DNA of 64,000 nucleotides, from assembly GCA_019192445.1 (NCBI GenBank), contig JAHCMK010000004.1:248001-312000 (forward strand), given 5' to 3'. A program made the position numbers and the translations under genes. Positions 25,079-44,209 of this stretch are shown piece by piece (position 1 is the first letter of the stretch; the number at the start of each line of letters is the position of its first letter). The notes under the pieces were generated by a model. The model did no database searches, was not told the DNA's origin, and saw only the letters and a list, made by a program, of their open reading frames with translations. Source of the stretch: Oceanococcus sp. HetDA_MAG_MS8 (lineage in GTDB: Bacteria > Pseudomonadota > Gammaproteobacteria > Nevskiales > Oceanococcaceae).

Positions 25079-26971
25079 ATGAGCCAGGAAAAGCAATCTA
25101 AACTGAAGTTGTTAATCGCAGAAGGCAAAGAGCGGGGTTACCTGACCTATGCCCAGATTAACGACAATCTTCCCGACGATGTGGTCGACCCTGATCAGAT
25201 CGAGGAAATCATTGCGCATCTGAATAATCTGGGCATCGCTGTCCATGAGGAAGCTCCAGATGATGAAGCACTGCTGCTGTCGGACTCGGTGGCCGTTGAA
25301 GTTGATGACGACGACGAAGACACCGAAGAAACCGTAGCAACACTGGCCGCATTAGACGATCAGTTCGGCCGTACCACCGACCCCGTTCGCATGTACATGC
25401 GCGAGATGGGCAGCGTGGAACTGTTGGACCGGCATGGTGAGGTTCGCATCGCCAAGCGCATTGAAGAAGGCTTGGCTGAAGCCATGACCGCACTCTGCGC
25501 ACACCCTGAAACCGTCGCCATCGTGCTGGAGCAATGGGGTGAGGTTCAAGCTGGCAACCGCCGTTTAGCCGATTTCGTCGTAGGCTTTTTAGACCCGAAT
25601 TCTGGCGACCCGCTTACGGCTCCAGGCGCCAGCTTGGACGCCGACGCCGAGCCTACAGACACCGCCGCGCAAGCCGACGACACCGCCGACGATGATGACG
25701 ATGCCGACGGCGATGATGACGCCGACGACAGCGTGGAAGAAGAAACACCGGATTACTCGGTGGACATGGACGATGTCAAAACCGCCATGGAAAGTCTGCA
25801 GGTGGGCTTTGATGCCTATATTGCAGCCCTAGAGAAAAACGGCGTTGGTCACAAAAGCACCGTTGCTGCGCTAGAGACGCTGGTATCGCAGTTCATGGGA
25901 CTGAAGTTCCATGCCAAGCTCATCGACGAAATGATGAGCAACCTGCGCCTGCACATCGAAGGCATTCGCAGCACCGAACGCAACATGATGCGCCGCATCG
26001 TTCAAGAATCGGGCATGCCGCGCAAGGACTTCATCAAGCAGTTCCCTGGCAACGCCACCAATGAAGAGTGGCTGGACAAGCTCATCCGCGCCAAGCGCAA
26101 ATACTCCTCTTCCATCGCCGGCCAGCGCGACGAGATCGTCGAACTCATGGCCAAGCTGCGGCAGATGGAAGCGGACACCTTCATGTCCATTGCCGAAATC
26201 AAGGAAGTGAACCGCCGGGTGTCCATTGGTGAGGCCAAAGCCCGCCGCGCCAAGAAGGAAATGGTGGAGGCCAACCTGCGCTTGGTGATCTCCATTGCCA
26301 AGAAATACACCAACCGTGGTTTGCAGTTCCTGGATTTGATTCAGGAAGGCAACATCGGCTTGATGAAAGCGGTGGACAAGTTCGAATACCGCCGTGGCTA
26401 CAAGTTCTCGACCTACGCCACCTGGTGGATTCGCCAGGCCATCACCCGCTCTATTGCCGACCAGGCCCGCACCATCCGGATTCCGGTGCACATGATTGAG
26501 ACCATCAACAAGCTCAATCGCATCAGCCGCCAAATGCTGCAGGAAATGGGTCGCGAAGCCACACCCGAAGAGCTGGCCAAGCGCATGGAAATGCCCGAGG
26601 ACAAAGTCCGCAAGGTATTGAAGATCGCCAAAGAGCCGATCTCCATGGAAACCCCCATTGGCGACGACGAAGATTCGCACTTGGGCGACTTCATTGAAGA
26701 CGCCAACGCCATCGCCCCCGGCGAGGACGCCACCAGCGAATCCCTGCGTGAAACCACGCACGAGATTCTGGCCACCCTCACCCCCCGCGAGGCCAAAGTG
26801 CTGCGCATGCGTTTCGGCATCGACCTGAACTCCGACCACACCCTTGAGGAAGTGGGCAAACAGTTCGACGTCACCCGCGAACGCATTCGCCAAATTGAAG
26901 CCAAAGCCTTACGCAAGCTGCGTCATCCCTCCCGGGCGACGCACCTCAAGAGCTTCCTCGACGAACTCTAA
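25079..26971 (+). CDS. rpoD: RNA polymerase primary sigma factor RpoD (sigma-70)
   Basis: Directs RNA polymerase to housekeeping promoters. It has 630 residues. Region 1.1 is at the N-terminus ([21 protein letters not shown]). A very acidic non-conserved stretch lies around residues 190-225, where Asp runs dominate. Region 2 has [27 protein letters not shown] and [17 protein letters not shown]. Region 3 follows, and region 4 ends with the helix-turn-helix [20 protein letters not shown] hairpin terminator and tRNA-Ile2 follow. Confidence 0.98.
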
Positions 26972-27086: not shown

Positions 27087-27142
<56 letters not shown>

Positions 27143-27163
<21 letters not shown>

Positions 27164-27530
27164 TTTCTCCTCAAACAGCTGCTGCCGCCTGACACCCATG
27201 GCGGTTCCAGGTTACTCAGGCCTTCCTGGCCCTCGCCCTTCGGGCTCCCTCCGGTCGTGTGAATCGGCCGTCCTGGCCGATTCATCAAGTCCTGGTGGGC
27301 CCACCATTTCTCCTCAAACACCTGCTGCCCACTGGCATCGATGGCGGTTCCAGGTTACTCGGGCCTTCCTGGCCCTCGCCCTTCGGGCTCCCTACGGTCG
27401 TGTGAATCGGCCGTCCAGGCCGATTCATCAACTCCTGGTGGGCCCACCACTTCTCCTCAAACACCTGCTGCCCACTGGCATCGATGGCGGTTCCAGGTGA
27501 CTCGGGCCTTCCCGGCCCTCGCCCTTCGGG
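27143..27530 (+). repeat. 143-bp tandem repeat beginning with the tRNA-Ile2 3' end (2.7 copies)
   Basis: Units start at 27143, 27286 and 27429, exactly 143 bases apart, the third being cut off near 27530. Each unit begins with about 20 bases of the tRNA 3' end (CAAGTCCTGGTGGGCCCACC plus A), followed by TTTCTCCTCAAACA. GGTTCCAGGTT, also copied from the tRNA T arm, recurs at 27203, 27346 and 27489. The first two units carry a nine-base hairpin GAATCGGCC/GGCCGATTC at 27261-27283 and 27404-27426. Copies 2 and 3 are more alike than copy 1. The design resembles the rtT repeats behind the E. coli tyrT genes. Confidence 0.92.
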
Positions 27531-27556
27531 GCTAATTGGATCTTCGCGCGAACGCC

Positions 27557-27907
27557 TTAGAGCAGCTCCAACACATTCTCCGGCGGGCGGCCCATCGCGT
27601 AGCGGCCCTTGATACACACCACCGGACGCTCAATCAGTTTGGGGTGTTGATGCAGTAGCTCGGCCCACTCCATCTCACTACGCTCGTCTGCCAATGACAG
27701 CCCCAGCTCCTTGAACAAGGCTTCTTTGCTGCGAATCAGATCGGTCACGGGGCAACCCAGCCCTTCGGCGGCAGCCATGATGGCGGTGGCGCTGGGCGGC
27801 ACTTTCAGGTATTCCACCACCTCAACATCCATTCCGCTCTCACGCAACAACTCCAAGGTTTGGCGGCTCTTGCTGCAGCGAGGGTTGTGCCAGATGAAAT
27901 CCGTCAT
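27557..27907 (-). CDS. ArsC/YffB-like thioredoxin-fold reductase
   Basis: Protein of the glutaredoxin-linked arsenate reductase family, 116 residues. The catalytic Cys11 lies in HNPRCSKSRQTLELL. The Arg residues of the anion site are in LIRSKEALFKELG and LIERPVVCIKGRYAMGRPP, so the full ArsC set is present and arsenate reduction is plausible. No arsenic transporter or ArsR regulator is nearby, and many such stand-alone proteins have no proven role. It reads towards the tRNA repeats. Confidence 0.85.
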   Translation of the reverse strand: MTDFIWHNPRCSKSRQTLELLRESGMDVEVVEYLKVPPSATAIMAAAEGLGCPVTDLIRSKEALFKELGLSLADERSEMEWAELLHQHPKLIERPVVCIKGRYAMGRPPENVLELL

Positions 27908-41689: not shown

Positions 41690-44209
41690 TTATGGCCTAG
41701 GCTCGGCAGGATTTGGCCATGCTGGGCAGTCTGCACCGAGAGCCACGGCGCGCACGTCGATCACCCGTCCCTGCGGATGCAGGAAATGCGACTGCTGGCA
41801 GAAGCTGCCCGGCGCATCACGTGGGTAAGAGTGCGGGTCGCGATCATCCTTCCAGTTGGGGGGAATGTTGGCCAAGGGTGGGGCGGCGGTTTCGCCTTCG
41901 TCCCAGACCATGAGTGCGGACTGTTGCTGCGCGGCCAATGACGCCGACCCACCCGGCTGGGCGTAGCTGACCTCGCGCCCCTCTAAGGGCAAACCCCAGA
42001 GCAGGTCCACGTCGACCTCGCGTTCGCGGGCCCATTGCGCGCGCGAGCTGTAGCAAAAGCGAACGGCCTCGCCACATTGCTCCGGGCTGCGAAACATCAC
42101 ATCCGCTAGGTCCACGCCAATGGTGCGCGCCAGGGCATAGGCCGACCAATGGGTCACCTGATGGTCGGCCCAGGCGGGACGCAGCAAGACCTGATTGTCG
42201 GGCCCCGCCAAGACCTGGTTGTTCGCGATGTGATGGGCGTAGCCGTTGTTTTCGGCGCGGTCCCAGAGCATCTGAATGAGACCAAAGGCCAGGGCCCGAT
42301 CCAGATCGCCGGTGTAGGCCGTATACAGTGGGGTTGCAAAACTCAGCGGGATGGGGTCCACGATAGAGCCCGTGAAGCCGGTACTGCGTTGCAGCAAGAT
42401 GCTGTAGGCCATACCCGGAACGCCCAGAACGCCGCGGGTGATGTCCTTGCTCATGGCCACCACCACACCACCCAGAATGCCGCCCTGGCTGATACCGTGG
42501 TAGTACACCGGCTCGGCCAGAAAGCGCGGCCCATCCGCATCACGGAAGGCGGGGTGCGCAGACAGCCCTTCGGGGTGGCGCAACAACCGGGCCAGAAACA
42601 GCATGTTCAACATGCCCTGTTGGGAGCCATCCGGAACGGCCGGGAACAGCGACAGATCCAGTAGCATGGCCGCCACGTTGGGGATATCTCCCTGGGCGAA
42701 GCCAAACCAGTCCACCGCGCAGAACAGGAAGTTGCTGGCCCGACTGAACTGGGGCACGCGGTCGTAAGAGACGGCCTGGCGTGAGTCCAACAAACCATGA
42801 CCATAAATCCCGGCCCGCGCCGGGTTGGCGCTGGTGGATTGCTCGTGCAGTCGGCAGAAGAAGGGCACATCGATGGTGCCGCTTTGATCAGGCAAGCCGT
42901 CGCCCCACAGCGACAACGCTAGGTCATCTGGGTAAGTGGCGTCCGGCAGGTAATTCAGCCGGTTAGGCGGAATCGAAGCGCTGCTGCCGATGCGCAACAC
43001 CTCACGCAGCGGACCCGCCACCTCGTTCAAGGGTTCCTGTTCTTCCAGAGCCGTCAGTACCGCGTCCACGGCATTGGCCGGGGCAGACTCTTCCAGCGGC
43101 GAGGGGTCGGCCGGCAGCACATAGCTGGGCACTTGCAGCGTGCCGCGAATCTCCAGGAAGTCATCATCGACAACTTGGGAGTCCACAGTGAAGGTCGGCG
43201 CCGCTCCTAGTTCCAGGACGCGGCCTTGGTCATCTTCCACCTGGCCGAGTACACGCCCAAAGGCATCATCGCGCATATGTTTAAGCCGACCACTGGTACT
43301 GGCTGCACTGGCCACGGTGAAGTCCCAGGCCAGGTAGAGGCCGGCATTGGCCTCGACTGCGATGCCCACGTCCTGCAGGATCGGGAAGACCCGTTGCTCC
43401 AGGTTGGCGCAGCGCGCAGCCAGTCCTGGCCAGTTAGCTGCCAGAGCGGCACTGCCATGGTCACGACAAGCGGCAAAGACGGCTTGCGCGGCAATGGGCT
43501 GCCCGTCCTGCGTGCGGAGGTCACGCAACACCACGATGTAGCGCCGCCCCTCCCTGAAGTTCTTCGCCGGCCGAATAATCACCGCCGGTTCAGCCGCCTG
43601 ATTACTGGGTTCTCCGCCGGGTGGCGAGCGGAATCCGGCATTGGCATCAATTTCCGCCCACACCGGGTGCCGCGCTCCGGTTTCGGCATCGATGACCAGG
43701 ATGCTCGCCGCAGGCTGCAGATACGCTCCGGGATCGTTCACGGAGGGCGCATTGGGCAGCGGCCCCAGCGCGTTCCCGTCGACATCACGCAGGATGGCCA
43801 CATTGGGCACACGAGCTAGCAGCAGCTGGCCTGGCGAATAGCCATCACTGCGGTTCCATTCCCAAGGCTGGATCGGCGCGCCGGCGATGTTCCTGGGCAT
43901 GGCCGCCAAGGGGAAGTTGATCAGCTGCCCTGTTCCTGCCCGTTCCATACTGCCCGGTGCACCGGCAGGCGCTGGCCGGGTGAAATGGTCACTGGGAAAG
44001 GGAAACAAGCAATGGGCAGGGTCTAAGGGGTCACAACCGCGCTGCTGCAACTCCGCCTCCTGGGCATCTAATGCAGCGGTATCCATGGGTTCCATGCTGC
44101 GAGAGCCCGCTGCCGAAGACAGCTCGCCTCGACCGCCTTCACAGGCGTACAGACCAAACGCCAGAAAAAGCATGATTAGCCGGTGGCCCGGCAGCCGTTG
44201 TAAATGCAT
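41690..44209 (-). CDS. Large lipoprotein with alpha/beta-hydrolase nucleophile motif
   Basis: 839 residues. The N-terminus carries a lipoprotein signal, MLFLAFGLYAC with Cys23 followed by EGGRGE. The C-terminal half holds YYHGISQGGILGG, a G-x-S-x-G nucleophile elbow, and GIYGHGLLDSR upstream could be the oxyanion part. This suggests an esterase or lipase-like enzyme at the membrane surface. The N-terminal half (FPFPSDHFTRP, ILVIDAETGARHPVWAEID) looks like beta-rich domains. GAGGAG lies before the ATG. The stop is 20 bases from that of phoD, with which it converges. Substrate unknown. Confidence 0.72.
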   Translation of the reverse strand: MHLQRLPGHRLIMLFLAFGLYACEGGRGELSSAAGSRSMEPMDTAALDAQEAELQQRGCDPLDPAHCLFPFPSDHFTRPAPAGAPGSMERAGTGQLINFPLAAMPRNIAGAPIQPWEWNRSDGYSPGQLLLARVPNVAILRDVDGNALGPLPNAPSVNDPGAYLQPAASILVIDAETGARHPVWAEIDANAGFRSPPGGEPSNQAAEPAVIIRPAKNFREGRRYIVVLRDLRTQDGQPIAAQAVFAACRDHGSAALAANWPGLAARCANLEQRVFPILQDVGIAVEANAGLYLAWDFTVASAASTSGRLKHMRDDAFGRVLGQVEDDQGRVLELGAAPTFTVDSQVVDDDFLEIRGTLQVPSYVLPADPSPLEESAPANAVDAVLTALEEQEPLNEVAGPLREVLRIGSSASIPPNRLNYLPDATYPDDLALSLWGDGLPDQSGTIDVPFFCRLHEQSTSANPARAGIYGHGLLDSRQAVSYDRVPQFSRASNFLFCAVDWFGFAQGDIPNVAAMLLDLSLFPAVPDGSQQGMLNMLFLARLLRHPEGLSAHPAFRDADGPRFLAEPVYYHGISQGGILGGVVVAMSKDITRGVLGVPGMAYSILLQRSTGFTGSIVDPIPLSFATPLYTAYTGDLDRALAFGLIQMLWDRAENNGYAHHIANNQVLAGPDNQVLLRPAWADHQVTHWSAYALARTIGVDLADVMFRSPEQCGEAVRFCYSSRAQWAREREVDVDLLWGLPLEGREVSYAQPGGSASLAAQQQSALMVWDEGETAAPPLANIPPNWKDDRDPHSYPRDAPGSFCQQSHFLHPQGRVIDVRAVALGADCPAWPNPAEPRP

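Follow-up and report, generated by a model that had tools for sequence, protein, structure and literature searches.

The locus considered here raises the question of why the 3' end of a tRNA should be repeated behind its own gene. Within the window, a stretch of 64,000 nucleotides from Oceanococcus sp. HetDA_MAG_MS8, such repeats follow tRNA-Ile2. They resemble the rtT repeats found behind the tyrosine tRNA of E. coli, for which, to our knowledge, there is no agreed origin.

A tRNA array in which every unit is split by the same insert

The tRNA is flanked by rpoD upstream and by a convergent ArsC-family gene downstream (Table 1). ARAGORN labels it Met(CAT). Because the two other CAT tRNAs of the genome resemble elongator and initiator Met, we take it, by elimination and given what is known of Ile2 sequences, to be Ile2(CAT). 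The initial annotation had described tandem 143-bp units carrying the 3' end of this tRNA, and these were recovered by Tandem Repeats Finder (TRF), by a repeat search and by script matching of the 21-nt 3' segment CAAGTCCTGGTGGGCCCACCA. The array comprises two full 143-base units and one partial unit. In the repeat search the units started at 27142, 27285 and 27428 and scored 100%, 94% and 73%, the third being truncated.

Two features were overlooked in that annotation, namely that the units also contain copies of the T-stem 5' strand together with a three-hairpin insert, and that related units lie behind many other tRNAs of this genome. Each unit runs in the same order: the tRNA 3' segment (T-loop to CCA), a spacer, a copy of the T-stem 5' strand (original in the tRNA at 27132-27142), an insert of about 72 bp, here called E, and the next 3' segment. 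E sits exactly at the T-loop position in each unit (GGTT-E-CAAG), so that it interrupts the T-arm at its loop in every extra copy (GGTT-E-CAAGTCC). E itself consists of three hairpins (H1 to H3), of which the outer two have loops of the NTCCT type and stems that vary between loci.

Table 1. Features of the tRNA-Ile2 locus, in window coordinates
Feature	Position	Strand	Evidence
rpoD (sigma-70), upstream neighbour	25079-26971	+	Pfam Sigma70 domains
tRNA-Ile2, anticodon CAT, CCA encoded	27087-27163	+	ARAGORN; Rfam tRNA, 74.6 bits
T-loop of tRNA-Ile2, TTCAAGT	27141-27147		
Tandem array, 143-bp units, 2.7 copies	27142-27530	+	TRF, period 143, score 687, 94% matches; repeat search
Native copy of the repeated tRNA 3' segment (T-loop to CCA)	27143-27163	+	Exact script match
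T-stem 5' strand copy 1, GGTTCCAGGTT	27203-27213	+	Script match
Insert E1: H1 loop TTCCT, H2 CCCTTCGGG, H3 loop GTCCT	27214-27286	+	R1, 80.5 bits; covariation
tRNA 3'-end copy 1, exact	27286-27306	+	Script match
T-stem 5' strand copy 2, GGTTCCAGGTT	27346-27356	+	Script match
Insert E2	27357-27429	+	R1, 83.8 bits
tRNA 3'-end copy 2, one change (CAACTCC)	27429-27449	+	Script match
T-stem 5' strand copy 3, GGTTCCAGGTG	27489-27499	+	Script match
Insert E3, partial, truncated after H2; array end	27500-27542	+	R1, 34.2 bits; TRF end 27530
ArsC-family gene, downstream neighbour, convergent	27557-27907	-	Pfam ArsC, E 4e-16

Related units behind other tRNAs of the genus

We surveyed 41 tRNAs each in the same genome and in that of one sister species (G001). 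Arrays or single units followed Ile2, Leu-TAA, Arg-TCT, Ser-CGA, Ser-GGA, Asn and Val in the former. In the sister species they were found behind Ile2, Leu-TAA, Leu-CAA, Val, Arg-ACG, Ala-CGC, Glu, Ser-GGA, Ser-CGA, Ser-GCT and Gly-CCC. The anatomy of the Ile2 units was repeated at about 10 further tRNAs across the two species, and the 3' end in every unit was that of its own tRNA. Units were 93.7% and 100% identical inside the two species versus 81-83% between them, which would fit a continuing homogenisation of the units. In many spacers the tRNA 3' end and T-arm recur in inverted form around the terminator, for example behind Ser-GGA in the sister species and behind Arg-CCG in G093.

The genomes compared are MAG and draft assemblies, and in both of these two the breaks between contigs fall inside arrays (C12:69215 and C14:1 in the genome of the window; the end of C36 and the start of C37 in the sister). 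Since arrays end at contig ends in several cases, their true copy number may exceed that assembled.

Two loci of the genus also point to insertions at tRNAs. A filamentous-phage-like element of about 8.6 kb lies at tRNA-Val(GAC) of the genome of the window (L016, C12:60000-69215); by eye, its translations include a tyrosine recombinase, Zot-like and attachment-like proteins and a replication initiator. At its far end stands a tRNA-Val fragment starting from the anticodon loop, followed by a displaced RtT-like array. In the sister species, several E units stand behind a piece of tRNA-Asn that breaks off at the anticodon (L110/L014, C24, about 42757-43286); they are apparently the Asn array, moved away by an insertion.

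E is a structured element enriched behind tRNAs

When 16 copies of E were aligned, both partners had changed in 16 of the 21 base pairs. The score for covariation was 0.45, compared with 0.13 in shuffled alignments and no more than 0.07 in slid controls. This argues strongly that the hairpins are important, be it as RNA or as single-stranded DNA.

We searched for further copies with R1, a covariance model of E alone that contains no tRNA sequence and was built without rtT. R1 had 23 matches in the genome of the window and 30 in the sister. At stricter cut-offs, the sampled genomes with a match numbered at least 31 of 85 in the order and at least 100 of 369 in the class Gammaproteobacteria, these counts being lower bounds with few candidates scored per genome. 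The initial annotation called the layout rare, a view that does not hold for a class spread this widely across Gammaproteobacteria. In 25 of 57 sampled loci, E followed a tRNA 3' end at a distance of at most 300 nt, where simple arithmetic (about 45 tRNAs per 3 Mb) predicts roughly 0.3, although the copies on which R1 was trained were tRNA-linked and such loci may be over-sampled.

Tandem units were also found in other families, with three copies each behind Lys-CTT (157 bp), Arg-CCG (about 170 bp) and Ser-GGA (174 bp). Overall, units range from 126 to 250 bp and contain no genes. Behind one Lys array, copies of E directly follow each other head to tail with no tRNA ends between them (L288, G006 C1, about 1947-2160).

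Filled and empty sites outside tRNAs

Comparison of flanking sequences revealed about six sites outside tRNAs that exist in a filled and an empty version, with E present in the filled one. At one of these, a serine recombinase gene (Pfam Resolvase), the empty sequence is CAGTTCAACACC; the filled version carries 73 inserted nucleotides that shift the reading frame, and its flanks are 95% identical to those of the empty one. The cleanest site is L240/L245, where the empty version reads GGGCGTTCGCC. A target duplication of more than one base was absent from all of these roughly six sites. Most carry GTTC or a close motif, which is clear at only two empty sites; two more are one base off (GACTCC and GGTCCC) and a further two are less clean. 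GTTC is also a fixed sequence of the tRNA T-loop, and in the tRNA arrays the ends of E coincide with that loop.

E thus inserts into non-tRNA genes, and its mobility is well supported. Among the loci examined, no insertion of E into an intact, functional tRNA was seen, and we found no transposase linked to E.

E also occurs inside a dispersed MITE-like repeat in the genome of the window, which has terminal inverted repeats. Its copies (L145-L149, at C8:7055-7343, C2:128742, C1:593956, C2:496538-496830 and C6:27588) begin with GGGAAGCnCTGAATAA and end with TTCAGCGCTTCCC, and have one or two E inserts apiece. A serine recombinase gene (Resolvase/Recombinase domains) contains, in two families, an in-frame E near its 3' end (L262 and L271), and in L271 a second E disrupts the gene.

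Orientation of E is associated with the palindromy of the T-loop

E was found 28 times in plus and 28 times in minus orientation. At tRNAs with a non-palindromic T-loop it was plus in 17 of 18 cases, and the lone minus case (L263) probably belongs to another tRNA. At tRNAs with the palindromic T-loop TTCGAA, 11 copies were plus and 27 minus. The association is significant (Fisher p = 6e-6), with the reservation that the loci are not phylogenetically independent, tRNA-Ser being dominant among them. Such a bias would be expected if E needed TT on one particular side.

The sequence preceding E aligned to the 5' side of its own tRNA with a score of 8.4, only mildly above the 6.1 obtained for other tRNAs, because minus arrays keep only GGTTCGA. 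The case for a T-stem copy rests on the longer, plus-orientation arrays. On inspection of 45 arrays, a terminator-like hairpin usually preceded those in minus orientation and was usually absent ahead of those in plus orientation, a link that falls outside what target palindromy explains.

Origin of the arrays

We consider it rather probable that the locus is an RtT-type array built around E, and that E is a non-autonomous mobile palindromic element of about 70-75 bp which enters mostly GTTC-like targets without duplicating them. First, the tRNA 3' region would have been duplicated or folded back, yielding a copy with a dispensable T-loop. E would then have entered the T-loop of this copy, leaving the functional tRNA intact, after which the unit of tRNA 3' end, spacer, T-stem and E would have multiplied. 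Homologous recombination or slippage may have kept the units uniform. The steps preceding the entry of E, which would have given both inverted and direct copies of the T-arm, are inferred. On this account the arrays would be mainly parasitic or mutational by-products that settle behind tRNA genes, and any RNA product would be secondary.

A different explanation, which we regard as unlikely, is that the units are functional: the tRNA transcript would read through them and be processed into rtT-like small RNAs. RttR of E. coli is annotated at tyrV, and the reported expression of rtT-family RNAs counts for such a function. RtT RNA is reported to be induced in the cold in Thioalkalivibrio (PMC8092127), and RtT-family RNAs to occur in Actinobacillus, where most candidates gave Northern signals (PMC4986893). 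In the window, the units are preceded only by a weak terminator-like site that the tRNA end itself forms, and the stems of E covary. However, conserved hairpins also fit a mobile DNA element. A T-tailed hairpin resembling an intrinsic terminator stands between the tRNA and the first E in 24 of 45 arrays elsewhere, E occurs equally often in both orientations, so that transcripts would be complementary between arrays, and E is inserted in protein genes. These three observations make a single RNA function common to the arrays unlikely and speak against it as the cause of the spread of E. Read-through small RNAs are possible at the array of the window, judging from its sequence, and some arrays may have acquired a function, given the rtT RNA expression reported in E. 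coli and its relatives.

It is improbable that the entire unit, with E as its diverged middle, arose at a hairpin-rich tRNA terminator through ordinary slippage during replication or through foldback copying. The inverted tRNA 3'-end copies in the spacers described above are typical of foldback copying, and units are nearly identical inside one species. Yet the architecture of E recurs behind different tRNAs, in many families, in the MITE-like element and within genes, which slippage cannot give. The filled and empty sites also weaken this reading. Slippage or foldback probably explains the growth in copy number but not E.

Marginally less probable again is a unit that is itself a minimal site-specific integrative element, in which a circle carrying the tRNA 3' end is directed into the T-loop by an integrase and integrates in tandem. 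Every unit does restore the tRNA 3' end from the T-loop onwards, as islands that use tRNAs do, and the units all run in one direction. Against this, E alone enters non-tRNA sites without any tRNA 3' end, there is no integrase at the window array, and the element at tRNA-Val entered the real tRNA, at its anticodon region, and not the repeats.

That the tRNA-end copies are decoy attachment sites that shield the tRNA gene from integrases is very improbable, and a role as integrase targets, which the initial annotation proposed, found no support: the copies hold the T-arm 3' strand and CCA end that many integrases use, but no integration was seen in any copy, and two arrays of the genus were displaced by insertions using the real tRNA (probably Asn in G001, and Val in G000, the genome of the window, where the filamentous-phage-like element entered tRNA-Val itself and only displaced the array).

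Returning to a mobile E, the locus, its relatives and the filled and empty sites suggest that rtT is the remains of a palindromic element that targets the T-loop. We tentatively go further, with somewhat less than even confidence, and propose that Gammaproteobacteria harbour in E a new kind of non-autonomous mobile element, one that naturally targets the T-loop GTTC, and that the rtT repeats and the many RtT annotations are its traces and not primarily a small-RNA family. Why tRNA ends repeat is now a testable proposal. Annotations of an "RtT sRNA" may mark mobile DNA, and the GTTC target together with the structure of E provides a handle for finding the mobilising enzyme.

Comparison with known systems

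E is comparable to REP elements (GTAG- or CGTC-tagged), which are small, dispersed palindromes, often paired, that lie between and inside genes. CGTC REPs also occur without a known transposase (PMC3733652). E differs in having three hairpins over about 72 bp in a fixed order, the outer two pointing the same way, and in its enrichment in tRNA T-loops, which is unmentioned for REPs in PMC3733652. GTAG REPs have an unpaired GTAG at the hairpin foot, and no conserved GTAG tag was found in the E alignment (A1). CGTC REPs are defined by an unpaired CGTC (or TGTC/CCTC) at one foot of an 8-9 bp stem with a loop of 4-5. In many E copies, CGTCC precedes H3 and TGTC or CGTC follows it, while the window copies read CGTG. 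The arrangement together with H1 and H2 is a different one.

Elements of the IS200/IS605 type insert beside a short target without duplicating it and have hairpins near both ends. E resembles such elements and their non-autonomous derivatives in its short target, its lack of target duplication and its hairpins near both ends, but no transposase lies inside or beside it. A Y1/RAYT transposase was considered as the mover and rejected: it was present in 19 of 30 genomes and absent from the E-rich G001, G006, G067 and G381. The single Y1 transposase gene in the genome of the window is set apart and not flanked by E. Integron attC-like insertion at G^TT was likewise discarded, the L240/L245 junction being one T short.

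Genomic islands at tRNA genes repeat the tRNA 3' end at the far side of the insert, as the units do. Unlike such islands, the units are gene-free and only 126-250 bp long, and E also enters non-tRNA sites. With these insertions outside tRNAs and no integrase at the window array, the units do not qualify as a tRNA-targeted integrative element. A BLAST search for the array in phages and plasmids gave no match.

The closest relative is the RtT RNA (RF00391) of tyrT and tyrV, in which tandem units behind a tRNA each open with the tRNA 3' end. The window array is built likewise, with a common insert at the equivalent T-loop position. The likeness to the E. coli tyrT repeats noted initially is borne out and can be extended, as rtT has the same T-loop breakpoint and a T-stem copy (AAGGTTCGA) ahead of a homologous insert placed as in the window units. 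This insert is in minus orientation and shares ACTC...TCGCCCTTCGGG with E. When R1 was run on the E. coli locus, the rtT units were the three best matches, on the expected strand, albeit weak ones (17 bits, E = 0.008). The window array differs from E. coli rtT in the opposite orientation of its insert, in its place behind tRNA-Ile2 and in its TCCT-type outer loops, which E. coli rtT has lost. A CsrA/RsmA sponge acting through GGA loops on the RtT strand was rejected, since the tRNA-sense strand of plus-orientation arrays, the window included, has TCC and E. coli rtT lacks these loops.

An Rfam scan around the window array returned only the tRNA, with no RtT match at E <= 1 (the RF00391 threshold is 45 bits). 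In the same genome, the inverted unit behind Ser-CGA reached 31.8 bits, below that threshold. The window array has the orientation opposite to E. coli rtT, which the Rfam RtT model does not see. In the order to which the window belongs, Rfam RtT matched 20 of 61 genomes, 11 of them above threshold, and in E. coli rtT matches occurred in 4680 of 5426 genomes at 1 to 9 places per genome, so its copy number varies. We found no description of the class beyond RtT in the open-access literature. We fetched 10 RtT loci, which lie behind tRNA-Tyr and in one case behind tRNA-Gln. R1 matched at the insert of all 10 on the opposite strand, 7 of them with E no higher than about 0.01 and 3 with 0.01-0.05. 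Rfam RtT and R1 thus find identical loci on opposite strands, and RtT and the window-type arrays are one class.
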